In this document: positions 1 to 25,704 of the stretch, piece by piece
How positions within the stretch are numbered: position 1 is the first letter of the stretch
Layout of the letters: each line of letters starts with the position of its first letter
From: Cheilinus undulatus
Lineage: Eukaryota > Chordata > Actinopteri > Labriformes > Labridae
Direction of reading: 5' to 3'
Assembly (NCBI RefSeq): GCF_018320785.1
Contig: NC_054876.1
Location: 5,795,405 to 5,859,404 of the forward strand
DNA: 64,000 bases
Notes under the pieces: generated by a model
What the model was told of the DNA's origin: nothing
Seen by the model: the letters and a program-made list of their open reading frames with translations, nothing else
Databases searched by the model: none
Position numbers and translations under genes: made by a program

Positions 1-286
1 TTGTTTCCATCCACTTGGGCTTCCAATGAAGACAGAGAAAGACTGCATAGATATCAAGGACCACACTCAAGCAACATAGACTGCAGAGCATTATGTTAAA
101 GGCCACCTCATGGTGATGGGCTCAGTCCTTCCAGGCAGAAAATCCCATTTTTGCTGGTGCACCAAACAGATGGAACTTTGTTGAGTCTTCCTGCTTGTTT
201 GTAGCAAGACACCCAAGGTGGCTGTTGTCAATGAATGTGTTTTTCAGTTGTCATGCAATTTTGGCAGAGAAAAGCCTCTCGTAGTG

Positions 287-360
287 CCATGACAATGGGA
301 TTCAAACTTACGTGTGCAGAGGACGATGGATTGGCAGTGTCAACCACGAGCCATCTTGTT
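287..360 (-). pseudogene. degraded tRNA-Ser relic, unit 1
   Basis: This aligns over its whole length with the intact tRNA-Ser of the same unit: the T-arm region, variable arm and anticodon arm are recognisable on the minus strand, but the T loop reads TTTGAAT and the acceptor and D arms no longer pair. The anticodon position reads GCC here. Its 3' flank keeps a TTTT run (270-273 on the plus strand as AAAA). It cannot form a normal tRNA cloverleaf. Confidence 0.85.
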
Positions 361-627
361 TGCTTAGCTTCACGGACAGTGCAACCTCATGGACATGGGC
401 TCAGTCCTGCAAGGAATCAAATGCAATCCTGCTGGTGGATTGTGAGGAGCATTTTGTTGAGTCTTCCTCCTTGTTGGCAGTTTCAGCAGCTGGCACATTG
501 GTTTGAAGTTGAGCAAGATGCAGCCATCACACACTGTTGCTTGATGAAAGACTTGCAGGGTGCTGGTGTTAATGGAGTTATCATTGTGTTGAAATACAAG
601 CATGGCAGAACAAAGCCTCCAGAAGTG

Positions 628-709
628 CAACGAGGATGGGATTCGAACCCACGCGTGCAGAGCACAAAGGATTAGCAGTCCATCACCTTAGCCACTCGGT
701 CACCTCGTC
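628..709 (-). tRNA. tRNA-Ser (anticodon GCU), unit 1
   Basis: An 82-nt class II tRNA with the long variable arm of serine tRNAs. On the minus strand it starts GACGAGGTGACCGAGTGG, has anticodon loop CTGCTAA and B box GGTTCGAATCC, and ends with discriminator G. The D stem is closed by A10-U25 in place of the usual G-C. Two weak points are specific to this copy: the acceptor ends in a G1:U72 wobble, and the anticodon stem has a U28/U42 mismatch that is also seen in units 6 and 9. It is divergent from tRNA-Ala, with 106 bp between them. No CCA is encoded, as expected in a eukaryote. Confidence 0.93.
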
Positions 710-815
710 TGTGCCTTCGGGATTTTTTAGCCACATTTGATGGAGTAATCTTGGGAAGCAGAGAAAGTTTAACACATTTGGGGGCCTGGCCCACTGCAAG
801 GTGGTCTGTTTCACA

Positions 816-888
816 GGGGAATTAGCTCAAATGGTAGAGAGCTCGCTTAGCATGCGAGAGGTAGAGGGATCAATGCCCTCATTCTCCA
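816..888 (+). tRNA. tRNA-Ala (anticodon AGC), unit 1
   Basis: A 73-nt tRNA with acceptor GGGGAAT paired to ATTCTCC, which gives the G3:U70 pair that alanyl-tRNA synthetase recognises. The anticodon loop is TTAGCAT, and the discriminator is A. This copy differs from the others by A for C at position 25, which breaks the G10-C25 D-stem pair, and by A for G at T-loop position 57. A TTTT terminator lies about 18 nt past the end. It may be a weaker gene than the other copies. Confidence 0.9.
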
Positions 889-1377
889 GAACTCCTTCCT
901 TGCTCTTTTCTGGTGATGAAACAATGAGTGGGAAGGTGAAGCATTCCATGTCCACAATGAAATGACTTTTATTCCAGTCAGCAAGCTTATGAGGGATTCA
1001 TGTCATTCTGTGAAACAATGCTTCCCGTTTGCCTCCCTGCTTTTAGGCTAGGCTTTTCCCACAGTGCTATCACTTCATAATCATGGACAATGTTGCTTCC
1101 ATCCACTTGGGCTTCCAATGAAGACAGAGAGACTACGTAGATATCAAGGACCACACTCAAACAACATTAATAGCAGAGCTTTACGTAAAAAGGCCACCTC
1201 ATGGTGATGGACTCAGTCCTTCCAGGCAGAAAATCCAATTCTTGCTGGTGCACAAAACAGATGGAACTTTGTTGAGTCTTCCTGCTTGTTGGCAGCAAGA
1301 CACCCAAGGTGGCTGTTGTCAGTGAATGTGTTTTTCTGTTGTCATGCAATTTTGGCAGAGAAAAGCCTCTCGTAGTG

Positions 1378-1454
1378 CCATGACAATGGGATTCAAACTT
1401 ACGTGTGCAGAGGACGATGGATTAGCAGTGTCAACCCACTGGGGCCATCTTGTT
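1378..1454 (-). pseudogene. degraded tRNA-Ser relic, unit 2
   Basis: Same relic as in unit 1, with GCT kept at the anticodon position. The acceptor and D arms are lost, and the T loop is changed. TTTT follows its 3' end on the minus strand (plus-strand AAAA at 1361-1364). Confidence 0.85.
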
Positions 1455-1615
1455 TGCTTAGCTTCATGGACAATGCAACCTCACACTGGTTTGAAGTTGA
1501 GCAAGATGCAGCCATCACACACTGTTGCTTGATGAAAGACTTGCAGGGTGCTGGTGTTAATGGAGTTATCATTGTGTTGAAATACAAGCATGGCAGAACA
1601 AAGCCTCCAGAAGTG

Positions 1616-1697
1616 CGACGAGGATGGGATTCGAACCCACGCGTGCAGAGCACAATGGATTAGCAGTCCATCACCTTAACCACTCGGTCACCTCGTC
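1616..1697 (-). tRNA. tRNA-Ser (anticodon GCU), unit 2
   Basis: Complete 82-nt copy. Acceptor GACGAGG/CCTCGTC pairs fully, the anticodon stem ATGGA/TCCAT is perfect, and the variable arm and B box GGTTCGAATCC are intact. This is the array's consensus form. The 3' flank on the minus strand begins with GGCTTTGTTC and has no TTTT until beyond the relic about 255 nt downstream. Confidence 0.96.
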
Positions 1698-1803
1698 TGT
1701 GCCTTTGGGTTTTTTTAGCCACATTTGATGGAGTAATCTTGGGTAGCAGAGAAAGTTTAACACATTTGGGGGCCTGGCCCACTGCAAGGTGGACTATTGC
1801 ACA

Positions 1804-1876
1804 GGGGAATTAGCTCAAATGGTAGAGCGCTCGCTTAGCATGCGAGAGGTAGAGGGATCGATGCCCTCATTCTCCA
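1804..1876 (+). tRNA. tRNA-Ala (anticodon AGC), unit 2
   Basis: Consensus 73-nt copy with G3:U70, D stem GCTC/GAGC, anticodon stem CTCGC/GCGAG, T stem GAGGG/CCCTC and discriminator A. A TTTT terminator lies 18 nt downstream. It is 106 bp from the divergent tRNA-Ser. Confidence 0.96.
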
Positions 1877-2369
1877 GAACTCCTTCCTTGCTCTTTTCTG
1901 GTGATGAAACAATGAGTGGGAAGGTGACGCATTCCATGTCCACAATGAAATGACTTTCATTCCAGTCAGCAAGCTTATGAGGGATTCATGTCATCCTGTG
2001 AAACAATGCTTCCATGTTGCCTCCCTGCTTTTAGGCTAGGCTTTTCCCACAGTGCTATCACTTCATAATCATGGACCATTTTGTTTCCATCCACTTGGGC
2101 TTCCAATGAAGACAGAGAAAGACTGCATAGATATCAAGGACCACACTCAAACAACATTAGACTAGCAGAGCTTTACGTAAAAAGGCCAACTCATGGTGAT
2201 GGACTCAGTCCTTCCAGGCAGAAAATCCAATTCTTGCTGGTGCACAAAACAGATGGAACTCTGTTGAGTCTTCCTGCTTGTTGGCAGCAAGACACCCAAG
2301 GTGGCTGTTGTCAGTGAATGTGTTTTTCTGTTGTCATGCAATTTTGGCAGAGAAAAGCCTCTCGTAGTG

Positions 2370-2447
2370 CCATGACAATGGGATTCAAACTCACATGTGC
2401 CGAGGACGATGCATTAGCAGTGTCAACCCACTGGGGCCATCTTGTTT
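2370..2447 (-). pseudogene. degraded tRNA-Ser relic, unit 3
   Basis: Relic of the same type as in unit 2. The anticodon GCT is still readable, but the acceptor and T-arm pairing are lost. Confidence 0.83.
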
Positions 2448-2584
2448 GCTTAGCTTCATGGACAATGCAACCTCACATTGGTTTGAAGTTGAGCAAGATG
2501 CAGCCATCACACACTGTTGCTGGTGTTAATGGAGTTATCATTGTGTTGAAATACAAGCATGGCAGAACAAAGCCTCCAGAAGTG

Positions 2585-2666
2585 CGACGAGGATGGGATT
2601 CGAACCCACGCGTGCAGAGCACAATGGATTAGCAGTCCATCACCTTAACCACTCGGTCACCTCGTC
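2585..2666 (-). tRNA. tRNA-Ser (anticodon GCU), unit 3
   Basis: Identical in form to the unit 2 copy, with all arms pairing. The spacer just to its left lacks 24 bp between two short GTTGCT-like repeats, which looks like a slippage deletion outside the gene. Confidence 0.96.
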
Positions 2667-2772
2667 TGTGCCTTCGGGATTTTTTAGCCACATTTGATGG
2701 AGTAATCTTGGGAAGCAGAGAAAGTTTAACACATTTGCGGGCCTGGCCCACTGCAAGGTGGTCTGTTTCACA

Positions 2773-2845
2773 GGGGAATTAGCTCAAATGGTAGAGCGCT
2801 CGCTTAGCATGCGAGAGGTAGAGGGATCGATGCCCTCATTCTCCA
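2773..2845 (+). tRNA. tRNA-Ala (anticodon AGC), unit 3
   Basis: Consensus 73-nt copy with G3:U70 and intact arms. The 106-bp spacing to tRNA-Ser is preserved even though the unit has a deletion elsewhere. Confidence 0.96.
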
Positions 2846-3335
2846 GAACTCCTTCCTTGCTCTTTTCTGGTGATGAAACAATGAGTGGGAAGGTGACGCA
2901 TTCCATGTCCACAATGAAATGACTTTCATTCCAGTCAGCAAGCTTATGAGGGATTCATGTCATCCTGTGAAACAATGCTTCCATGTTGCCTCCCTGCTTT
3001 TAGGCTAGGCTTTTCCCACAGTGCTATCACTTCATAATCATGGACCATTTTGTTTCCATCCACTTGGGCTTCCAATGAAGACAGAGAAAGACTATGTAGA
3101 TATCAAGGACCACACTCAAACAACATAGACTGCAGAGCATTATGTTAAAGGCCAACTCATGGTGATGGACTCAGTCCTTCCAGGCAGAAAATCCAATTCT
3201 TGCTGGTGCACCAAACAGATGGAACTTTGTTGAGTCTTCCTGCTTGTTGGCAGCAAGACACCCAAGGTGGCTGTTGTCAATGAATGTGTTTTTCTGTTGT
3301 CATGCAATTTTGGCAGAGAAAAGCCTCTCGTAGTG

Positions 3336-3413
3336 CCATGACAATGGGATTCAAACTTACGTGTGCAGAGGACGATGGATTGGCAGTGTCAACCCACCGG
3401 AGCCATCTTGTTT
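3336..3413 (-). pseudogene. degraded tRNA-Ser relic, unit 4
   Basis: Relic with GCC at the anticodon position, as in the other long units. The acceptor and D arms are not pairable. Confidence 0.83.
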
Positions 3414-3679
3414 GCTTAGCTTCACGGACAGTGCAACCTCATGGACATGGGCTCAGTCCTGCAAGGAATCAAATGCAATCCTGCTGGTGGATTGTGAGGA
3501 GCATTTTGTTGAGTCTTCCTCCTTGTTGGCAGCTTCAGCAGCTGGCACATTGGTTTGAAGTTGAGCAAGATGCAGCCATCACACACTGTTGCTTGATGAA
3601 AGACTTGCAGGGTGCTGGTGTTAATGGAGTTATCATTGTGTTGAAATACAAGCATGGCAGAACAAAGCCTCCAGAAGTG

Positions 3680-3761
3680 CGACGAGGATGGGATTCGAAC
3701 CCACGCGTGCAGAGCACAATGGATTAGCAGTCCATCACCTTAACCACTCGGTCACCTCGTC
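3680..3761 (-). tRNA. tRNA-Ser (anticodon GCU), unit 4
   Basis: Consensus 82-nt copy. It is the only one in a long unit with a perfect anticodon stem (TCCAT rather than TCCTT). Unit 4 therefore mixes long-unit spacer with middle-unit gene sequence, as expected from gene conversion. Confidence 0.96.
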
Positions 3762-3867
3762 TGTGCCTTTGGGTTTTTTTAGCCACATTTGATGGAGTAA
3801 TCTTGGGAAGCAGAGAAAGTTTAACACATTTGGGGGCCTGGCCCACTGCAAGGTGGACTATTGCACA

Positions 3868-3940
3868 GGGGAATTAGCTCAAATGGTAGAGCGCTCGCTT
3901 AGCATGCGAGAGGTAGAGGGATCGATGCCCTCATTCTCCA
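3868..3940 (+). tRNA. tRNA-Ala (anticodon AGC), unit 4
   Basis: Consensus 73-nt copy with G3:U70, all stems paired and a TTTT terminator 18 nt downstream. Confidence 0.96.
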
Positions 3941-4429
3941 GAACTCCTTCCTTGCTCTTTTCTGGTGATGAAACAATGAGTGGGAAGGTGACGCATTCCA
4001 TGTCCACAATGAAATGACTTTCATTCCAGTCAGCAAGCTTATGAGGGATTCATGTCATCCTGTGAAACAATGCTTCCATTTCCCTCCCTGCTTTTAGGCT
4101 AGGCATTTCCCACAGTGCTATCACTTCATAATCATGGACAATGTTGCTTCCATCCACTTGGGCTTCCAATGAAGACAGAGAGACTACGTAGATATCAAGG
4201 ACCACACTCAAACAACATTAATAGCAGAGCTTTACGTAAAAAGGCCAACTCATGGTGATGGACTCAGTCCTTCCAGGCAGAAAATCCAATTCTTGCTGGT
4301 GCACCAAAACCGATGGAACACGGTTGAGTCTTCCTGCTTGTTGGCAGCAAGACACCCAAGGTGGCTGTTGTCAGTGAATGTGTTTTTCTGTTGTCATGCA
4401 ATTTTGGCAGAGAAAAGCCTCTCGTAGTG

Positions 4430-4507
4430 CCATGACAATGGGATTCAAACTCACATGTGCAGAGGACGATGCATTAGCAGTGTCAACCCACTGGGGCCAT
4501 CTTGTTT
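4430..4507 (-). pseudogene. degraded tRNA-Ser relic, unit 5 (short unit)
   Basis: The only Ser-related sequence in this short unit. GCT is readable at the anticodon position, but the cloverleaf is lost. The deletion that made the short unit begins shortly after it. Confidence 0.82.
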
Positions 4508-4535
4508 GCTTAGCTTCATGGACAATGCAACCTCG

Positions 4536-4582
4536 CTTGCTTAGCATGCGAGAGGTAGAGGGATCGATGCCCTCATTCTCCA
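4536..4582 (+). pseudogene. tRNA-Ala 3' part, unit 5
   Basis: Spacer sequence ending CAATGCAACCTC runs directly into the tRNA-Ala anticodon arm, so the acceptor 5' strand, D arm and A box are missing. The anticodon loop, T arm with B box and the acceptor 3' strand remain. It cannot give a complete tRNA. The same junction occurs in units 8 and 11, so the deletion happened once and was then multiplied. Confidence 0.9.
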
Positions 4583-5072
4583 GAACTCCTTCCTTGCTCT
4601 TTTCTGGTGATGAAACAATGAGTGGGAAGGTGACGCATTCCATGTCCACAATGAAATGACTTTCATTCCAGTCAGCAAGCTTATGAGGGATTCATGTCAT
4701 CCTGTGAAACAATGCTTCCATGTTGCCTCCCTGCTTTTAGGCTAGGCTTTTCCCACAGTGCTATCACTTCATAATCTTGGACCATTTTGTTTCCATCCAC
4801 TTGGGCTTCCAATGAAGACAGAGAAAGACTGCATAGATATCAAGGACCACACTCAAGCAACATAGACTGCAGAGCATTATGTTAAAGGCCACCTCATGGT
4901 GATGGGCTCAGTCCTTCCAGGCAGAAAATCCCATTTTTGCTGGTGCACCAAACAGATGGGACTTTGTTGAGTCTTCCTGCTTGTTTGTAGCAAGACACCC
5001 AAGGTGGCTGTTGTCAATGAATGTGTTTTTCACTTGTCATGCAATTTTGGCAGAGAAAAGCCTCTCGTAGTG

Positions 5073-5150
5073 CCATGACAATGGGATTCAAACTTATGTG
5101 TGCAGAGGACGATGGATTGGCAGTGTCAACCCACCGGAGCCATCTTGTTT
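5073..5150 (-). pseudogene. degraded tRNA-Ser relic, unit 6
   Basis: Relic with GCC at the anticodon position and TATG in place of TACG in the T-arm region. Unit 9 shares this change, as part of the duplicated trimer. Confidence 0.83.
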
Positions 5151-5416
5151 GCTTAGCTTCACGGACAGTGCAACCTCATGGACATGGGCTCAGTCCTGCA
5201 AGGAATCAAATGCAATCCTGCTGGTGGATTGTGAGGAGCATTTTGTTGAGTCTTCCTCCTTGTTGGCAGTTTCAGCAGCTGGCACATTGGTTTGAAGTTG
5301 AGCAAGATGCAGCCATCACACACTGTTGCTTGATGAAAGACTTGCAGGGTGCTGGTGTTAATGGAGTTATCATTGTGTTGAAATACAAGCATGGCAGAAC
5401 AAAGCCTCCAGAAGTG

Positions 5417-5498
5417 CGACGAGGATGGGATTCGAACCCACGCGTGCAGAGCACAAAGGATTAGCAGTCCATCACCTTAGCCACTCGGTCACCTCGTC
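5417..5498 (-). tRNA. tRNA-Ser (anticodon GCU), unit 6
   Basis: Complete 82-nt copy with a normal acceptor. It carries the long-unit variant TCCTT, which leaves a U28/U42 mismatch in the anticodon stem, and GGCTAAGG in the D loop, a common serine tRNA variant. Confidence 0.94.
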
Positions 5499-5604
5499 TG
5501 TGCCTTCGGGATTTTTTAGCCACATTTGATGGAGTAATCTTGGGAAGCAGAGAAAGTTTAACACATTTGGGGGCCTGGCCCACTGCAAGGTGGTCTGTTT
5601 CACA

Positions 5605-5677
5605 GGGGAATTAGCTCAAATGGTAGAGCGCTCGCTTAGCATGCGAGAGGTAGAGGGATCAATGCCCTCATTCTCCA
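5605..5677 (+). tRNA. tRNA-Ala (anticodon AGC), unit 6
   Basis: Complete 73-nt copy with the D stem intact. It carries A at T-loop position 57, shared with units 1 and 9, which is still a purine and so compatible with function. Confidence 0.95.
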
Positions 5678-6165
5678 GAACTCCTTCCTTGCTCTTTTCT
5701 GGTGATGAAACAATGAGTGGGAAGGTGACGCATTCCATGTCCACAATGAAATGACTTTCATTCCAGTCAGCAAGCTTATGAGGGATTCATGTCATCCTGT
5801 GAAACAATGCTTCCATGTTGCCTCCCTGCTTTTAGGCTAGGCTTTTCCCACAGTGCTATCACTTCATAATCATGGACAATGTTGCTTCCATCCACTTGGG
5901 CTTCCAATGAAGACAGAGAGACTATGTAGATATCAAGGACCACACTCAAACAACATTAATAGCAGAGCATTATGTTAAAGGCCACCTCATGGTGATGGGC
6001 TCAGTCCTTCCAGGCAGAAAATCCCATTTTTGCTGGTGCACCAAACAGATGGAACTTTGTCGAGTCTTCCTGCTTGTTTGTAGCAAGACACCCAAGGTGG
6101 CTGTTGTCAATGAATGTGTTTTTCAGTTGTCATGCAATTTTGGCAGAGAAAAGCCTCTCGTAGTG

Positions 6166-6243
6166 CCATGACAATGGGATTCAAACTTACGTGTGCAGAG
6201 GACGATGGATTGGCAGTGTCAACCCACTGGGGCCATCTTGTTT
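6166..6243 (-). pseudogene. degraded tRNA-Ser relic, unit 7
   Basis: Relic with GCC at the anticodon position. This half of unit 7 is not visibly more eroded than in the other units. Confidence 0.82.
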
Positions 6244-6403
6244 GCTTAGCTTCATGGACAATGCAACCTCACATTGGTTTGAAGTTGAGCAAGATGCAGC
6301 CATCACACACTGTTGCTTGATGAAAGACTTGCAGGGTGCTGGTGTTAATGGAGTTATCATTGTGTTGAAATACAAGCATGGCAGAACAAAGCCTCCAGAA
6401 GTG

Positions 6404-6483
6404 CGACGAGGATGGAATTCAAACCCACGCGTGCAGAGCACAATGGATTAGCAGTCCATCACCTTAACCACTCGGTCACCGTC
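6404..6483 (-). pseudogene. damaged tRNA-Ser (GCU), unit 7
   Basis: Unlike the eight complete copies, this one lacks two bases in the 5' acceptor strand (GACGG rather than GACGAGG). Its T arm is changed so that the loop reads TTTGAAT and the stem no longer pairs cleanly. The anticodon arm is intact. It looks non-functional. The adjacent tRNA-Ala and spacer also show small losses, so consensus error in the assembly is an alternative explanation. Confidence 0.85.
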
Positions 6484-6587
6484 TGTGCCTTTGGGTTTTT
6501 TAGCCACATTTGATGGAGTAATCTTGGGAAGCAGAGAAAGTTTAACACATTTGGGGCCTGGCCCACTGCAAGGTGGACTATTGCACA

Positions 6588-6655
6588 GGGAATTAGCTCA
6601 AATGGTAGAGCTCTTAGCATGCGAGAGGTAGAGGGATCGATGCCCTCATTCTCCA
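6588..6655 (+). pseudogene. damaged tRNA-Ala (AGC), unit 7
   Basis: It is 68 nt long rather than 73. One G is lost from the acceptor and four bases (two CG/GC pairs) from the D-stem/anticodon-stem junction, leaving GAGCTCTTAGC. The T arm is intact. It looks non-functional unless the losses are assembly errors. Confidence 0.85.
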
Positions 6656-7143
6656 GAACTCCTTCCTTGCTCTTTTCTGGTGATGAAACAATGAGTGGGA
6701 AGGTGACGCATTCCATGTCCACAATGAAATGACTTTCATTCCAGTCAGCAAGCTTATGAGGGATTCATGTCATCCTGTGAAACAATGCTTCCCCATTTCC
6801 TCCTGCTTTTAGGCTAGGCTTTTCCCACAGTGCTATCACTTCATAATCATGGACAATGTTGCTTCCATCCACTTGGGCTTCCAATGAAGACAGAGAGACT
6901 ACGTAGATATCAAGGACCCCACTCAAACAACATTAATAGCAGAGCTTTACGTAAAAAGGCCAACTCATGGTGATGGACTCAGTCCTTCCAGGCAGAAAAT
7001 CCAATTCTTGCTGGTGCACAAAACAGATGGAACTCTGTTGAGTCTTCCTGCTTGTTGGCAGCAAGACACCCAAGGTGGCTGTTGTCAGTGAATGTGTTTT
7101 TCTGTTGTCATGCAATTTTGGCAGAGAAAAGCCTCTCGTAGTG

Positions 7144-7220
7144 CCATGACAATGGGATTCAAACTCACATGTGCAGAGGACGATGCATTAGCAGTGTCAA
7201 CCCACTGGGGCCATCTTGTT
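7144..7220 (-). pseudogene. degraded tRNA-Ser relic, unit 8 (short unit)
   Basis: Same as the unit 5 relic. The two short units are nearly identical throughout. Confidence 0.82.
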
Positions 7221-7249
7221 TGCTTAGCTTCATGGACAATGCAACCTCG

Positions 7250-7296
7250 CTTGCTTAGCATGCGAGAGGTAGAGGGATCGATGCCCTCATTCTCCA
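7250..7296 (+). pseudogene. tRNA-Ala 3' part, unit 8
   Basis: Same junction and remaining parts as in unit 5: anticodon arm, T arm and acceptor 3' strand, without the A box. Confidence 0.9.
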
Positions 7297-7786
7297 GAAC
7301 TCCTTCCTTGCTCTTTTCTGGTGATGAAACAATGAGTGGGAAGGTGACGCATTCCATGTCCACAATGAAATGACTTTCATTCCAGTCAGCAAGCTTATGA
7401 GGGATTCATGTCATCCTGTGAAACAATGCTTCCATGTTGCCTCCCTGCTTTTAGGCTAGGCTTTTCCCACAGTGCTATCACTTCATAATCTTGGACCATT
7501 TTGTTTCCATCCACTTGGGCTTCCAATGAAGACAGAGAAAGACTGCATAGATATCAAGGACCACACTCAAGCAACATAGACTGCAGAGCATTATGTTAAA
7601 GGCCACCTCATGGTGATGGGCTCAGTCCTTCCAGGCAGAAAATCCCATTTTTGCTGGTGCACCAAACAGATGGGACTTTGTTGAGTCTTCCTGCTTGTTT
7701 GTAGCAAGACACCCAAGGTGGCTGTTGTCAATGAATGTGTTTTTCACTTGTCATGCAATTTTGGCAGAGAAAAGCCTCTCGTAGTG

Positions 7787-7863
7787 CCATGACAATGGGA
7801 TTCAAACTTATGTGTGCAGAGGACGATGGATTGGCAGTGTCAACCCACCGGAGCCATCTTGTT
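7787..7863 (-). pseudogene. degraded tRNA-Ser relic, unit 9
   Basis: Matches the unit 6 relic, including the TATG variant and the CACTTG variant in its 3' flank, so units 6 and 9 are recent duplicates. Confidence 0.83.
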
Positions 7864-8130
7864 TGCTTAGCTTCACGGACAGTGCAACCTCATGGACATG
7901 GGCTCAGTCCTGCAAGGAATCAAATGCAATCCTGCTGGTGGATTGTGAGGAGCATTTTGTTGAGTCTTCCTCCTTGTTGGCAGTTTCAGCAGCTGGCACA
8001 TTGGTTTGAAGTTGAGCAAGATGCAGCCATCACACACTGTTGCTTGATGAAAGACTTGCAGGGTGCTGGTGTTAATGGAGTTATCATTGTGTTGAAATAC
8101 AAGCATGGCAGAACAAAGCCTCCAGAAGTG

Positions 8131-8212
8131 CGACGAGGATGGGATTCGAACCCACGCGTGCAGAGCACAAAGGATTAGCAGTCCATCACCTTAGCCACTC
8201 GGTCACCTCGTC
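8131..8212 (-). tRNA. tRNA-Ser (anticodon GCU), unit 9
   Basis: Complete 82-nt copy matching the unit 6 copy, including the U28/U42 mismatch and the GGCTAAGG D loop. Confidence 0.94.
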
Positions 8213-8318
8213 TGTGCCTTCGGGATTTTTTAGCCACATTTGATGGAGTAATCTTGGGAAGCAGAGAAAGTTTAACACATTTGCGGGCCTGGCCCACTGC
8301 AAGGTGGTCTGTTTCACA

Positions 8319-8391
8319 GGGGAATTAGCTCAAATGGTAGAGCGCTCGCTTAGCATGCGAGAGGTAGAGGGATCAATGCCCTCATTCTCCA
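8319..8391 (+). tRNA. tRNA-Ala (anticodon AGC), unit 9
   Basis: Complete 73-nt copy with A at T-loop position 57 and a normal D stem. The flank to its right shares rare variants with unit 1 (GAAGCATTCC, TTTTATTCC), a sign of exchange between distant units. Confidence 0.95.
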
Positions 8392-8881
8392 GAACTCCTT
8401 CCTTGCTCTTTTCTGGTGATGAAACAATGAGTGGGAAGGTGAAGCATTCCATGTCCACAATGAAATGACTTTTATTCCAGTCAGCAAGCTTATGAGGGAT
8501 TCATGTCATTCTGTGAAACAATGCTTCCCCGTTTGCCTCCCTGCTTTTAGGCTAGGCTTTTCCCACAGTGCTATCACTTCATAATCATGGACAATGTTGC
8601 TTCCATCCACTTGGGCTTCCAATGAAGACAGAGAGACTACGTAGATATCAAGGACCACACTCAAACAACATTAATAGCAGAGCTTTACGTAAAAAGGCCA
8701 CCTCATGGTGATGGACTCAGTCCTTCCAGGCAGAAAATCCAATTCTTGCTGGTGCACAAAACAGATGGAACTTTGTTGAGTCTTCCTGCTTGTTGGCAGC
8801 AAGACACCCAAGGTGGCTGTTGTCAGTGAATGTGTTTTTCTGTTGTCATGCAATTTTGGCAGAGAAAAGCCTCTCGTAGTG

Positions 8882-8958
8882 CCATGACAATGGGATTCAA
8901 ACTTACGTGTGCAGAGGACGATGGATTAGCAGTGTCAACCCACTGGGGCCATCTTGTT
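8882..8958 (-). pseudogene. degraded tRNA-Ser relic, unit 10
   Basis: Same form as the unit 2 relic, with GCT at the anticodon position. Confidence 0.83.
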
Positions 8959-9119
8959 TGCTTAGCTTCATGGACAATGCAACCTCACACTGGTTTGAAG
9001 TTGAGCAAGATGCAGCCATCACACACTGTTGCTTGATGAAAGACTTGCAGGGTGCTGGTGTTAATGGAGTTATCATTGTGTTGAAATACAAGCATGGCAG
9101 AACAAAGCCTCCAGAAGTG

Positions 9120-9201
9120 CGACGAGGATGGGATTCGAACCCACGCGTGCAGAGCACAATGGATTAGCAGTCCATCACCTTAACCACTCGGTCACCTCGT
9201 C
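9120..9201 (-). tRNA. tRNA-Ser (anticodon GCU), unit 10
   Basis: Consensus 82-nt copy with all stems paired. Unit 10 is the intact counterpart of the damaged unit 7 in the duplicated trimer. Confidence 0.96.
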
Positions 9202-9307
9202 TGTGCCTTCGGGATTTTTTAGCCACATTTGATGGAGTAATCTTGGGAAGCAGAGAAAGTTTAACACATTTGCGGGCCTGGCCCACTGCAAGGTGGACTA
9301 TTCCACA

Positions 9308-9380
9308 GGGGAATTAGCTCAAATGGTAGAGCGCTCGCTTAGCATGCGAGAGGTAGAGGGATCGATGCCCTCATTCTCCA
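9308..9380 (+). tRNA. tRNA-Ala (anticodon AGC), unit 10
   Basis: Consensus 73-nt copy with G3:U70, paired stems and a TTTT terminator 18 nt downstream. Confidence 0.96.
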
Positions 9381-9871
9381 GAACTCCTTCCTTGCTCTTT
9401 TCTGGTGATGAAACAATGAGTGGGAAGGTGAAGCATTCCATGTCCACAATGAAATGACTTTCATTCCAGTCAGCAAGCTTATGAGGGATTCATGTCATCC
9501 TGTGAAACAATGCTTCCCCGTTTGCCTCCCTGCTTTTAGGCTAGGCTTTTCCCACAGTGCTATCACTTCATAATCATGGACCATTTTGTTTCTATCCACT
9601 TGGGCTTCCAATGAAGACAGAGAAAGACTGCATAGATATCAAGGACCACACTCAAGCAACATAGACTGCAGAGCATTATGTTAAAGGCCACCTCATGGTG
9701 ATGGACTCAGTCCTTCCAGGCAGAAAATCCAATTCTTGCTGGTGCACAAAACAGATGGAACTTTGTTGAGTCTTCCTGCTTGTTGGCAGCAAGACACCCA
9801 AGGTGGCTGTTGTCAGTGAATGTGTTTTTCTGTTGTCATGCAATTTTGGCAGAGAAAAGCCTCTCGTAGTG

Positions 9872-9948
9872 CCATGACAATGGGATTCAAACTCACATGT
9901 GCAGAGGACGATGGATTGGCAGTGTCAACCCACTGGGGCCATCTTGTT
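9872..9948 (-). pseudogene. degraded tRNA-Ser relic, unit 11 (short unit)
   Basis: Relic with GCC at the anticodon position, unlike units 5 and 8. The short units are therefore not simple copies of one another. Confidence 0.82.
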
Positions 9949-9977
9949 TGCTTAGCTTCATGGACAATGCAACCTCG

Positions 9978-10024
9978 CTTGCTTAGCATGCAAGAGGTAG
10001 AGGGATCGATGCCCTCATTCTCCA
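9978..10024 (+). pseudogene. tRNA-Ala 3' part, unit 11
   Basis: Same deletion junction as in units 5 and 8. One further change (GCAAG for GCGAG) weakens the anticodon stem. Confidence 0.9.
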
Positions 10025-10513
10025 GAACTCCTTCCTTGCTCTTTTCTGGTGATGAAACAATGAGTGGGAAGGTGACGCATTCCATGTCCACAATGAAATG
10101 ACTTTCATTCCAGTCAGCAAGCTTATGAGGGATTCATGTCATCCTGTGAAACAATGCTTCCATGTTGCCTCCCTGCTTTTAGGCTAGGCTTTTCCCACAG
10201 TGCTATCACTTCATAATCATGGACAATGTTGCTTCCATCCACTTGGGCTTCCAATGAAGACAGAGAGACTACGTAGATATCAAGGACCACACTCAAACAA
10301 CATTAATAGCAGAGCTTTACGTAAAAAGGCCACCTCATGGTGATGGACTCAGTCCTTCCAGGCAGAAAATCCAATTCTTGCTGGTGCACAAAACAGATGG
10401 AACTTTGTTGAGTCTTCCTGCTTGTTGGCAGCAAGACACCCAAGGTGGCTGTTGTCAGTGAATGTGTTTTTCTGTTGTCATGCAATTTTGGCAGAGAAAA
10501 GCCTCTCGTAGTG

Positions 10514-10590
10514 CCATGACAATGGGATTCAAACTTACGTGTGCAGAGGACGATGGATTAGCAGTGTCAACCCACTGGGGCCATCTTGTT
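10514..10590 (-). pseudogene. degraded tRNA-Ser relic, unit 12
   Basis: Same form as the unit 2 relic, with GCT at the anticodon position. Confidence 0.83.
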
Positions 10591-10751
10591 TGCTTAGCTT
10601 CATGGACAATGCAACCTCACACTGGTTTGAAGTTGAGCAAGATGCAGCCATCACACACTGTTGCTTGATGAAAGACTTGCAGGGTGCTGGTGTTAATGGA
10701 GTTATCATTGTGTTGAAATACAAGCATGGCAGAACAAAGCCTCCAGAAGTG

Positions 10752-10833
10752 CGACGAGGATGGGATTCGAACCCACGCGTGCAGAGCACAATGGATTAGC
10801 AGTCCATCACCTTAACCACTCGGTCACCTCGTC
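10752..10833 (-). tRNA. tRNA-Ser (anticodon GCU), unit 12 (array end)
   Basis: Consensus 82-nt copy, the last gene of the array. No tRNA-Ala follows: sequence matching the array stops about 65 bp upstream of this gene's 5' end. A diverged 30-bp piece of the unit (CACAATGTTATGACTTTCAT) follows at about 10922-10950, so the array edge was formed by deletion. Confidence 0.96.
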
Positions 10834-10899
10834 TGTGCCTTCGGGATTTTTTAGCCACATTTGATGGAGTAATCTTGGGAAGCAGAGAAAGTTTAACAC

Positions 10900-21847: not shown

Positions 21848-22712
21848 GGCAAAGTAACAAAACCAATAAAGTAACAAAACCACTAACAAAACCAGTAAAG
21901 TAGCAAAACCAATTAAGTAGCAAAACCAATAAAGTAACAAAACCAGTAAAGTAGCAAAACCAATAAAGTAGCAAAACCAGTAAAGTAACAAAACCAGTAA
22001 AGTAGCAAAACCAATAAAGTAACAAAACCAGTAAAGTAACACAACCAGTAAAGTAGCAAAACCAATAAAGTAACAAAACCAGTAAAGTAACACAAGCAGT
22101 AAAGTAGCAAAACCAATAAAGTAGCAAAACCAGTAAAGTAACAAAACCAGTAAAGTAGCAAAACCAATAAAGTAGCAAGACCAGTAAAGTAGCAAAACCA
22201 GTAAAGTAACAAAACCAATAAAGTAACAAAACCACTAACAAAACCAGTAAAGTAGCAAAACCAATAAAGTCACAAAAGCAGTAAAATAACAAAACCAGTA
22301 AAGTAGCAAAACCAATAAAGTAACAAAACCAGTAAAGTAACACAGCCAGTAAAGTAGCAAAACCAATAAAGTAGCAAAACCAGTAAAGTAACAAAACCAG
22401 TAAAGTAGCAAAACCAATAAAGTAACAAAACCACTAACAAAACCAGTAAAGTAGCAAAACCAATAAAGTAACAAAACCAGTAAAGTAGCAAAACCAATAG
22501 AGTAGCAAAACCAATAAAGTAGCAAAACCAGTAAAGTAACAAAACCAGTAAAGTAGCAAAACCAGTAAAGTAGCAAAACCAATAAAGTAATAAAACCACT
22601 AACAAAACCAGTAAAGTAGCAAAAGCAATAAAGTAGCAAAACCAGTAAAGTAACAAAACCAGTAAAGCAGCAAAACCAATAAAGTAACAAAACCAGTAAA
22701 GTAACAAAACCA
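21848..22712. repeat. 17-bp minisatellite, about 50 copies
   Basis: The unit is AGTAAAGTARCAAAACC, with GTAAC and GTAGC variants mixed, and a shortened 12-bp unit (ACTAACAAAACC) recurs at about 21880, 22232, 22432 and 22592. Because 17 is not a multiple of 3 and the unit lacks stops on the minus strand, all three minus frames stay open for 100-196 codons (LLYWFCYFTGF patterns). These are not genes. Confidence 0.95.
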
Positions 22713-24172: not shown

Positions 24173-25704
24173 CAGTCATGGAAAAAAATTATTAGACCAC
24201 CCTTGTTTTCTTTAATTTCTTGTTCATTTCAATGCCTGATATCACTGAAGGTATATTACCTGAAGAATACCGTGAACATGACAAAAAAATGCAGCTGATT
24301 CCATAATACTTTATGTCCTATTTGACATGCTTAAGCTTAATTGTATTCTCAGAGTATATAAGAGGCCATTTCATGTCATAAGCAGCACTGCACATGCAAA
24401 GGCCTAGAGTGGATTACTGCTTACATTCAAGCCGTAGCACAACTCAGAAGTTGTGAGCTCTAACATAATGCCCAAAACAAAAGAATTATGTGAAGCCACA
24501 AAGGCAGCCATCTTGGCACTGCTGGAAATTGGTATGAGTGAGAGACAGGTAGCCAAAAAACTGGAGATCTCCAAGACAGCCATTCATTACACCAAAAAAA
24601 AAAAAGCAAGCCGAACATGGTACTACCAAATTGCTAGCTGGTCAAAGCAGGAAATGTCTTTCTACCCCACGAGAGGACCATGCACTCATCCGTTCCTGTG
24701 TCAGGAATCGTCGTCAGGCCTCCAGGGACCTTAAAAATGAGTGGGCACTATCAAGAAATGTGACTTGTTCAGCAAGGACAGTTCGAAACCGACTTCACAC
24801 AGGGCACGGAAGAAGCCCTTCCATCAACGAAAGGCAGAGGAAGGCCCGGTTACTCTCTGCTAGGGATCACAAGGATTGGACTGTTGATGATTGGGCTAAG
24901 GTTCTCTTCAGTGATGAATCAAATTTTGAGTTGATGCCCACTCCAGCCAACTTACTGGTTTGGAGGAGGCCTGGAGAAGCCAACAAACCAGACTGTCTTG
25001 CCCCTACAGTAAAACATGGGGGTGGATCAGTGATGATCTGGGGCTGTTTCAGTATGGGTGGAACAGGGTAAATGCAATTGTGTGAAGGGCGAATGAACCA
25101 GGTCACGTACAGGGCTACTCTTGAAAACAGTCTTCTCCCATCAGCTGATAAACTCCTTCCTGCTTCAAATGACTGGATTTTCCAACAAGACAATGCCCCT
25201 TGCCACACGGCAAGGTCAGTTAAAGCCTGGATGGAGAACCAGAGCATTTGAACCATGCCTTGGCCTGCTCAATCACCAGATCTAAATCCAATTGAAAACC
25301 TGTGGAACATCATCAAACTCAAAATGGAGAACCACAAGCCCAAAAACAAAGCAAATTTGGTTGAATTTTTGCAACAGGAATGGGCTGCTGTGACAGCAGA
25401 ACAATGTCAGAAGCTGGTGGAGAGCATGCCAAGACGTGCATGCAATCAAATACTAACTCCTGTGTGAATCATGTGACTAACAGACAGAAAAGAAAACATG
25501 GAATGCCTAAAAAAACCTGTTTTTGGCAGTACAATGCCTTAGCTATTGATGTAAGAACTTAAGTGATTTTGGTTATCATCAAGAAAACCAGCTCTTATGA
25601 GCTATTTTTGTTGTTATCATTATATTTGTCCATACAAATGTACTTTTAGTTGTACCAGGCATTAAAATGAACAAGAAATTGAAGAAAACAAGGGTGGTTT
25701 AATA
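24173..25704 (+). mobile_element. near full-length Tc1/mariner element (Tc1-III)
   Basis: The left end after TA reads CAGTCATGGAAAAAAATTAT and continues with ACCACCCTTGTTTTC. The right end carries the inverse (GAAAACAAGGGTGGTTTAAT) but stops short of the outermost bases, so the right terminus is truncated or rearranged. It carries a broken transposase gene. This is the most complete DNA transposon in the window. Confidence 0.92.
24468..25467 (+). pseudogene. Tc1-type transposase, DD34E, disabled
   Basis: The gene begins MPKTKELCEATKAAILALLE, with an N-terminal helix-turn-helix (ERQVAKKLEISKTAIHY) that binds the terminal repeats. The DDE catalytic residues are all present: Asp in LFSDESNFEL (24913), Asp in QQDNAPCH (25189) and Glu in NPIENLW (25294). 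There are 34 residues between the second Asp and the Glu, the Tc1 signature. The reading frame shifts near the A-run at 24593-24605, between the two DNA-binding halves. In-frame stops lie at 25069 and 25249. The C terminus ends MPRRACNQILTPV. The protein would cut and paste the element at TA sites. This copy cannot make it. Confidence 0.93.

Follow-up and report, generated by a model that had tools for sequence, protein, structure and literature searches.

We describe a tandem tRNA-Ala/tRNA-Ser array at its right-hand end, where the intact tRNA-Ser(GCT) genes lack a nearby run of four T (T4) and are accompanied by a tandem-duplicated, decayed tRNA-Ser copy, here called the relic. Our preferred reading, to which we assign a probability of roughly 0.7, is that the interrupted tract TTTGTT behind the intact gene is a leaky, non-canonical stop, that the rest of RNA polymerase III (Pol III) would continue to the following T run, located inside the relic in the window (the whole stretch of 64,000 nucleotides that was analysed), and that the transcript would be trimmed by tRNase Z. 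Ordinary duplication, together with a known, leaky mode of ending tRNA transcripts, accounts for the layout, and a dedicated terminator or a two-tRNA precursor as the function of the relic is not supported. An unexpected result is that nearly all examined tRNA-Ser(GCU) genes are without a nearby T4, unlike the tRNA-Ala genes of the array and most tRNA-Ser(AGA/TGA) genes.

Results

The array is about 48 kb in length. Within positions 1-10899 of the window, ARAGORN calls eight tRNA-Ser(GCT) genes on the minus strand and seven tRNA-Ala(AGC) genes on the plus strand, and Rfam adds one further, degenerate Ser copy, so that the segment holds nine Ser copies. It also holds 12 relics, three of which (pattern starts 4409, 7123 and 9851) do not lie directly behind a Ser gene. 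Plus-strand open reading frames of 146-147 aa run antisense to relic and Ser gene; two of the four were tested and have no Pfam match. The features are as follows.

1..10899, no strand: right-hand end of the tandem tRNA-Ala/tRNA-Ser array, which reaches left to about C12:5757832, beyond the window
1616..1697, minus: tRNA-Ser(GCT) of unit 2, the type copy (ARAGORN; Rfam RF00005, 63.4 bits)
628-709, 2585-2666, 3680-3761, 5417-5498, 8131-8212, 9120-9201 and 10752-10833, minus: other tRNA-Ser(GCT) copies (ARAGORN, Rfam)
6404..6483, minus: degenerate tRNA-Ser copy with altered B box (GGTTTGAATTC) (RF00005, 38.1 bits; no ARAGORN call)
1804..1876, plus: tRNA-Ala(AGC), divergent from tRNA-Ser, with TTTT beginning 18 nt past the gene (ARAGORN)
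1597..1602, minus: interrupted T tract TTTGTT of unit 2, 13-18 nt beyond the ARAGORN gene end
1361..1429, minus: tRNA-Ser relic of unit 2, consisting of TTTT, a 13-nt flank (1365-1377) and a tRNA-derived 3' half (1378-1429)
1361..1364, minus: first run of at least four T downstream of the unit 2 tRNA-Ser, which is the TTTT of the relic
4409..4582, 7123-7296 and 9851-10024, minus: relic fused on its 5' side to a tRNA-Ala 3' fragment (plus strand), which replaces the normal spacer

An earlier note on this DNA had taken the flanks of the intact gene and the relic to be related, and the alignment bears this out: a 144-nt alignment of the relic to the Ser gene plus its 3' flank reaches 72% (E about 2e-21) and runs past the tRNA into the flank. 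In a long unit a second paralogous spacer block (75% over 104 nt) is duplicated as well. Relics are absent among the ARAGORN hits and among the Rfam hits, the latter even at E<=1. Homology that extends into the flank, no tRNA call or fold, and drift like that of spacer together characterize a decayed tandem duplicate, and the relic shows all three; a dicistronic arrangement consists of two functional tRNAs, and here the second element is no tRNA by ARAGORN or Rfam. Matches to an 18-base flank pattern in viral and bacterial collections (1 and 5, respectively) were taken as chance. A second cluster lies on the same contig at C12:17.36 Mb, and five relics were found in the parts of it that were fetched. 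In a FastTree phylogeny of 31 sequences the relics of the array and of the second cluster group as a single clade with local support 1.0, and on this phylogenetic ground they are of common origin.

Directly behind the gene, GGCTTTGTTC is found in all nine tRNA-Ser(GCT) copies of the window; 3' of the gene all nine read GGAGGCTTTGTTCTGCC, with TTTGTT beginning 13 nt past the ARAGORN end. The first minus-strand run of at least four T is reached 228 nt (n=1), 251-252 nt (n=4) or 354-357 nt (n=4) from the Ser gene, and in 9/9 copies it is that of the relic (GGCTTTTCTC). The window Ser genes are thus without T4 ahead of the relic, as had been claimed, and the gene end (1615/1616) and TTTT (1361-1364) of unit 2 agree with the earlier values; the distances given there, about 255 and about 355 nt, hold for all units except the one at 228 nt. 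The lack of T4 over 250 nt is, however, no improbable event: its probability is 0.23 when the dinucleotides of the unit 2 spacer are shuffled and 0.17-0.20 when starting points are drawn at random in the window, about 0.2 overall, and the window copies are not independent of each other for this estimate. We therefore rejected its rarity as an argument.

The survey of the whole array (C12:5756001-5807404) covered 29 ARAGORN Ser genes and 28 Ala genes. TTTGTT is present behind 24 of the 29 Ser genes and a T4 within 50 nt behind only one, as against 26/28 Ala genes with a T4 within that distance. In sequence the Ser flanks thus have the form of a non-canonical Pol III terminator, an interrupted T-rich tract close to the gene with no T4 in the first 50 nt. 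All 36 relics of the array have at least four T (30 with T4 and two each with T5, T6 and T7). It is conceivable that most Pol III reads through TTTGTT and terminates at the relic TTTT, so that an RNA of roughly 315-445 nt carrying tRNA-Ser and relic is the regular precursor and the relic a terminator cassette. The presence of at least four T in every array relic agrees with this, as does the position of the relic tract as first run of at least four T at 23 of the 29 array Ser genes. Against it, a different T4 comes first at the other six, including C12:5783698, whose gene matches the query copy at 100% identity; 8/36 array relics do not directly follow a Ser-type hit; and TTATTC stands in place of T4 in all five relics found in the fetched parts of the second cluster. 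The relic tRNA-derived half moreover diverges about like spacer. We consider this reading unlikely.

The earlier suggestion that the relic might serve as terminator cassette, trailer or source of small RNA is not supported, given these same observations and the absence of any excess of folding, described below. The relic as a conserved terminator was rejected because of the TTATTC of the five second-cluster relics and because a different T4 precedes that of the relic at some array Ser genes. Nor is there support for the relic having kept an ancestral terminator, as had been proposed: T4 is absent in those five relics, and the T tracts of Ser genes outside the array with homologous flank (C1 and the second cluster) are interrupted too. 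Selection on the relic TTTT was likewise discarded as a candidate: its four columns are all invariant in the array, but so are 19/30 of the next columns and 8/13 of the preceding ones.

Between the clusters the Ser gene is identical at 81/82 positions (98.8%) and its 3' flank at 65%, while the relic (four array and two second-cluster relics compared) is 67-75% identical in its 3' half and 61-66% in its flank; its 5' part, at 77-81%, lies somewhat above spacer. Diversity within the array is 0.034 in the gene as against 0.062-0.136 in the gene flanks and 0.076 in the relic 3' half. At 0.087 the TTTGTT tract is conserved no better than the sequence before (0.071) and after it (0.062), and selection on the tract was dismissed. 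Folding z values are +1.28, -0.23 and +1.28 for three relics (two with the same sequence) and -2.18 for the gene; the relic folds no better than shuffles, which removes it as a candidate structured RNA.

These data bear on whether the relic, instead of being debris, might be a kept RNA or a B-box-only site that binds TFIIIC. Three of the five second-cluster relics match exactly the pattern GGTTCGANTCC, which we take to be the B-box consensus, with no A box left, and the similarity of the 5' part between clusters points the same way. The array relics argue otherwise, since 8/9 aligned ones have AGTTTGAATCC, with two mismatches to the pattern, and the ninth has three; the spacer-like divergence of the tRNA-like part and the lack of a fold also speak against a kept element, which we regard as very improbable.

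Among the 35 ARAGORN tRNA-Ser(GCT) genes examined in the genome, none has a T4 within 30 nt and one has it within 50 nt, so that the supply of this needed tRNA apparently does not depend on a proximal T4; judged from gene and flank sequence, tRNA-Ser(GCU) would apparently be made via non-canonical or distal termination. Genome-wide, 27 Ser(GCT) genes match the anticodon-plus-B-box pattern, and they are confined to the array, the second cluster and C18. Outside the array the first T4 lies at 61 nt (C18), 231 nt (C17) and 224 nt (C1), and in the second cluster at 130 nt, at 422 nt or nowhere in 500 nt. By comparison, 14/18 tRNA-Ser(AGA/TGA) genes have a T4 within 50 nt (20 of 49 pattern places were fetched, and two of the 20 dropped because ARAGORN made no Ser call). 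The lack of T4 is not unique to Ser(GCT), an option ruled out by 18/30 other tRNA genes without T4 within 50 nt, in a non-random sample of 30 of 63 Rfam hits (the top ones), half of them Thr and the rest mostly Cys or Ala.

Many array copies might be silent, with tRNA-Ser(GCU) coming from a few genes such as C18:35519234 or those of the second cluster and the array flanks being irrelevant. Isolated and second-cluster Ser(GCT) genes do exist, and according to the accessible text of PMC11417395 the isodecoders that zebrafish encodes in clusters are expressed differently in development from the isolated ones. The outside genes (C18, C17, C1 and the second cluster) are, however, without T4 within 50 nt as well, so that the termination question would merely be moved, and array gene sequences are kept better than their flanks. 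We hold this explanation to be decidedly improbable.

Discussion

In HeLa B2 assays, as far as the consulted portion of PMC8466645 goes, TTTT and TVTTT (V = A, C, G) are the shortest moderately efficient terminators and TTT and TCTT give little termination; TTTGTT does not appear among the terminators assayed in that portion. TTTGTT may accordingly hardly stop Pol III and distal termination could be the main route, a point that also favors the two-tRNA precursor. Orioli et al. 2011 reported that human Pol III can terminate at tRNA genes non-canonically and with read-through, as cited in the excerpts of PMC4937561, PMC5356446, PMC8466645 and PMC12775064, the published work consulted in part also describes terminators lying 50 nt or more past the gene, and in human PRO-Seq engaged Pol III falls off at poly-T runs (PMC9026722, excerpt). 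The earlier premise that Pol III stops at T4 or longer is thus too strict, because non-canonical and distal tRNA termination have been described; what stands of it is that stopping without T4 is expected to be leaky. A literature search on TTTGTT as a Pol III terminator returned one paper, on gene editing in grape, and none of the titles listed in our searches concerned teleost tRNA terminators or a precursor joining a tRNA to a tRNA pseudogene. The words 'dicistronic tRNA' occur in a C. elegans promoter paper (PMC2527325).

We propose that a tRNA-Ser gene and its 3' flank were tandemly duplicated and that the duplicate decayed into the relic, which most simply would have arisen before the array split from the second cluster and would then have been copied along with the unit. 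TTTGTT behind the intact gene would be a non-canonical, probably leaky terminator at which part of the polymerases halt, the remainder proceeding to a T run that, in the window, happens to fall in the relic; read-through across the relic is plausible from the arrangement of T runs. In either case tRNase Z would cut the tRNA 3' end and the trailer would be degraded. Points against this proposal are the possible inefficiency of TTTGTT, the fall of engaged Pol III at poly-T runs in human PRO-Seq, the at least four T in 36/36 array relics, which a functional reading also predicts, and the similarity of the relic 5' part (77-81%). We raise more tentatively, as somewhat doubtful, that essentially the whole tRNA-Ser(GCU) supply might come from genes without proximal T4, ending at interrupted tracts or far-downstream T runs and giving family-wide pre-tRNAs with long trailers, while array Ala and most Ser(AGA/TGA) genes keep ordinary TTTT.

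The locus offers a natural experiment on Pol III termination at tRNA genes in the absence of T4: a single array places some two dozen nearly identical Ser genes that have interrupted tracts next to Ala genes that have TTTT. If non-canonical stopping is very inefficient, tRNA-Ser(GCU) would depend on long read-through precursors. The relic also advises caution, as tandem duplication and decay can leave a terminator-bearing pseudogene downstream.

As far as the portions of the cited papers allow comparison, the arrangement resembles human non-canonical and read-through termination in having no nearby T4, interrupted T tracts and possible distal terminators, and differs in that it involves nearly every examined Ser(GCT) gene, that the distal T4 of the window lies in a decayed gene copy, and that it is known here from sequence alone. 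Extended tRNA transcripts of yeast (PMC4937561) are alike in having 3' extensions that usually reach 50-200 nt beyond weak terminators and are processed or degraded; yeast T tracts are longer, 7-8 being commonest, whereas the window Ser genes are without T4 for 228-357 nt. The tRNA clusters of zebrafish and stickleback (PMC2888827, PMC11417395) are similarly large, contain genes and pseudogenes and often consist of heterogeneous pairs, but the Danio pairs surveyed are nearly all parallel, while Ala and Ser here stand head-to-head.

Results

The window begins within a tandem array in which tRNA-Ala(AGC) genes lie on the plus strand and tRNA-Ser(GCT) genes on the minus strand, head to head (ARAGORN, Rfam). 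The array extends over ~48 kb from a left limit at ~C12:5757832 (C12 is contig NC_054876.1, on which the window occupies 5795405-5859404), and in C12:5756001-5807404 ARAGORN recognizes 29 genes for Ser and 28 for Ala, one degenerate Ser copy of the window being outside the 29. With the Ser gene as query, BLAST finds 38 Ser-type matches in the array and 36 relics, i.e., decayed duplicates of the Ser gene and its 3' flank; 28 of the 36 have a Ser-type match next upstream within 500 nt.

An earlier note on this DNA stated that the Ser genes lack TTTT (T4), the canonical Pol III stop, and that the first such run lies in the relic, and in this it was right. All nine Ser copies in the window (eight called by ARAGORN, one degenerate from Rfam) carry the interrupted tract TTTGTT 13-18 nt beyond the gene end (14 in the degenerate copy when counted from the Rfam end), and the first run of at least four T behind them is the relic TTTT, at an offset of 228, 251-252 or 354-357 nt. 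Among the 29 array Ser genes the tract is TTTGTT in 24, TTTCTT in 1, TTCGTT in 2 and TTGGTC in 1, and the remaining gene has none; a T4 within 50 nt is found in one of them (at 33 nt), and the relic supplies the first T>=4 for 23. Of the 28 Ala genes in the array, 26 carry T4 7-19 nt behind the gene. The chance level for 250 nt without T4 is 17-23%, where copies of one repeat are non-independent events.

Some copies in the array depart from the common type. Two 86% Ser-type copies (C12:5763985 and C12:5779577), not called Ser by ARAGORN, have an altered anticodon arm, fall outside the Ser(GCT) pattern list and carry T6 at 24 nt. A Ser body with anticodon GTT, 91% to the Ser gene and called tRNA-Asn by ARAGORN, lies on the minus strand at C12:5788637-5788718 (2637-2718 of L018, a fetched piece of the array); it is probably a decaying copy, and if expressed it could be a mis-decoding tRNA. 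Single Ala copies in C12:5756001-5807404 have anticodons CGC, GGC and TGC among the AGC copies. In three short units the relic is joined to a tRNA-Ala 3' fragment, and these junctions are signs of unequal recombination within the array:

Window 4409-4582, relic joined to tRNA-Ala 3' fragment
Window 7123-7296, relic joined to tRNA-Ala 3' fragment
Window 9851-10024, relic joined to tRNA-Ala 3' fragment

Elsewhere the window holds a 17/51 bp tandem repeat with ~52 copies of AAAGTAACAAAACCAGT (21851-22712) and, on the plus strand at 24631-25071, a fragment of a Tc1-like transposase that matches Pfam HTH_Tnp_Tc3_2 (E=1.7e-8). Such a fragment, the clustering of the tRNA genes and the size of the genome would point to a teleost.

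Ser(GCT) genes in the whole genome

Across the assembly (1.17 Gb, 46 contigs), an anticodon-arm pattern with at most 2 mismatches occurs at 42 places (33 in the array, 3 in a second, related cluster on C12, 6 single), and an anticodon plus B-box pattern at 27 (24, 2 and 1 on C18). The array accounts for 29 of the 35 Ser(GCT) genes that ARAGORN identifies in the fetched stretches, the second cluster for 3, and C1, C17 and C18 for 1 each. Three single pattern places (two on C2, one on C9) yield no ARAGORN gene and were excluded; in these the first T4 is reached after 275, 157 and 439 nt. T4 is found within 30 nt behind 0/35 genes and within 50 nt behind 1/35, the controls at 50 nt being 14/18 for Ser(AGA/TGA), 26/28 for array Ala and 12/30 for the top Rfam tRNA matches. 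Because the independent flanks among the 35 genes may number three to five, and the chance level of having no T4 within 50 nt is 0.65-0.77, selection is not required for the family-wide lack. The flanks suggest that the tRNA needed for AGC/AGU codons is produced without a proximal T4, a reading that a missed or unassembled gene would overturn.

Origin of the relic and its T run

Gene and relic align over 144 nt at 72%, and in a long unit an additional spacer block is duplicated too (75% over 104 nt), so the relic derives from duplication of a larger unit. In a tree of 31 sequences picked from a larger set, where the deep order of the Ser genes is poorly supported, relics from both clusters form one clade (local support 1.0) separate from the Ser genes; most simply, the relic would be older than the split of the two clusters.

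The second cluster (C12:17.36-17.37 Mb) was sampled as two stretches of 10,000 and 801 bases. At the aligned place its three Ser genes read TTCTCC, TTATCC and TTATTC, and none of the 5 relics found in these stretches has T4 there, the sequence being TTATTC instead (a 17-nt Ser match at 9915-9931 of L019, a piece of this cluster, was excluded from the 5). The C1 Ser gene, which has its flank in common with array Ser, carries TTTCTT. All 36 array relics have T>=4 (T4 in 30; T5, T6 and T7 in 2 each). Since every examined Ser lineage with the common flank has an interrupted tract, and T>=4 at that place occurs only in array relics, the proposal that the intact genes lost T4 and the relic kept it is not borne out; a gain in array relics would be at least as economical as a loss from intact genes.

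Three of the five second-cluster relics fit exactly the B-box consensus pattern GGTTCGANTCC, with the A box gone:

L019 8446-8492, minus strand, B-box-matching relic
L019 9577-9623, minus strand, B-box-matching relic
L104 (second piece of this cluster) 251-296, minus strand, B-box-matching relic

Constraint on the relic

Between the clusters, the Ser gene is identical at 81/82 positions, the 3' flank at 55/85 (65%) and the 5' flank at 27/40 (68%). For 4 array relics against 2 second-cluster relics, identity is 67-75% in the tRNA-derived 3' half, 61-66% in the flank and 77-81% in the 5' part. Mean pairwise diversity within the array is 0.034 for the Ser gene, 0.087 for TTTGTT, 0.062-0.135 for the remaining 3' flank and 0.076 for the relic 3' half. 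The relic TTTT is invariant in 36 copies, as are 19 of the 30 following and 8 of the 13 preceding columns. Folding z-scores are +1.28, -0.23 and +1.28 for three relics (two identical in sequence) and -2.18 for the Ser gene. Judged by these comparisons, the relic resembles spacer, except for its slightly better kept 5' part, and the function earlier proposed for it finds no support.

Antisense to relic and Ser, four units contain ORFs of 146-147 aa, likely due to chance; the two tested gave no Pfam match:

Window 235-675, plus strand, antisense ORF
Window 3284-3727, plus strand, antisense ORF
Window 5021-5464, plus strand, antisense ORF
Window 7735-8178, plus strand, antisense ORF

Discussion

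tRNase Z cleaves at the tRNA 3' end. The source of the figure of about 95% termination at TTTT in a tRNA model is reportedly Orioli 2011. That figure is cited in the part of PMC8466645 used here, which gives 65% for TTTT with Pol III in HeLa cells in a SINE context, together with 50% for TCTTT, 42% for TATTT, 20% for TGTTT and little for TTT or TCTT; cited tRNA work gave 50% for TATTT and 40% for TGTTT. TTTGTT is not among the tracts with termination values in that part. Sections of a review and yeast data (PMC5356446, PMC4937561) describe polymerases that read through, terminators lying at a distance and extended pre-tRNAs that are degraded, and the introduction of PMC12775064 cites tRNA genes with degenerate tracts, for example TTATTT. 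Pol III would be expected to stop weakly at TTTGTT, and polymerases passing it would be expected to read through to the next T run. Human PRO-Seq data, as excerpted from PMC9026722, show engaged Pol III falling off at poly-T runs, which counts against such a weak stop with read-through. The best account of the array would be leaky, non-canonical termination across ordinary array debris.
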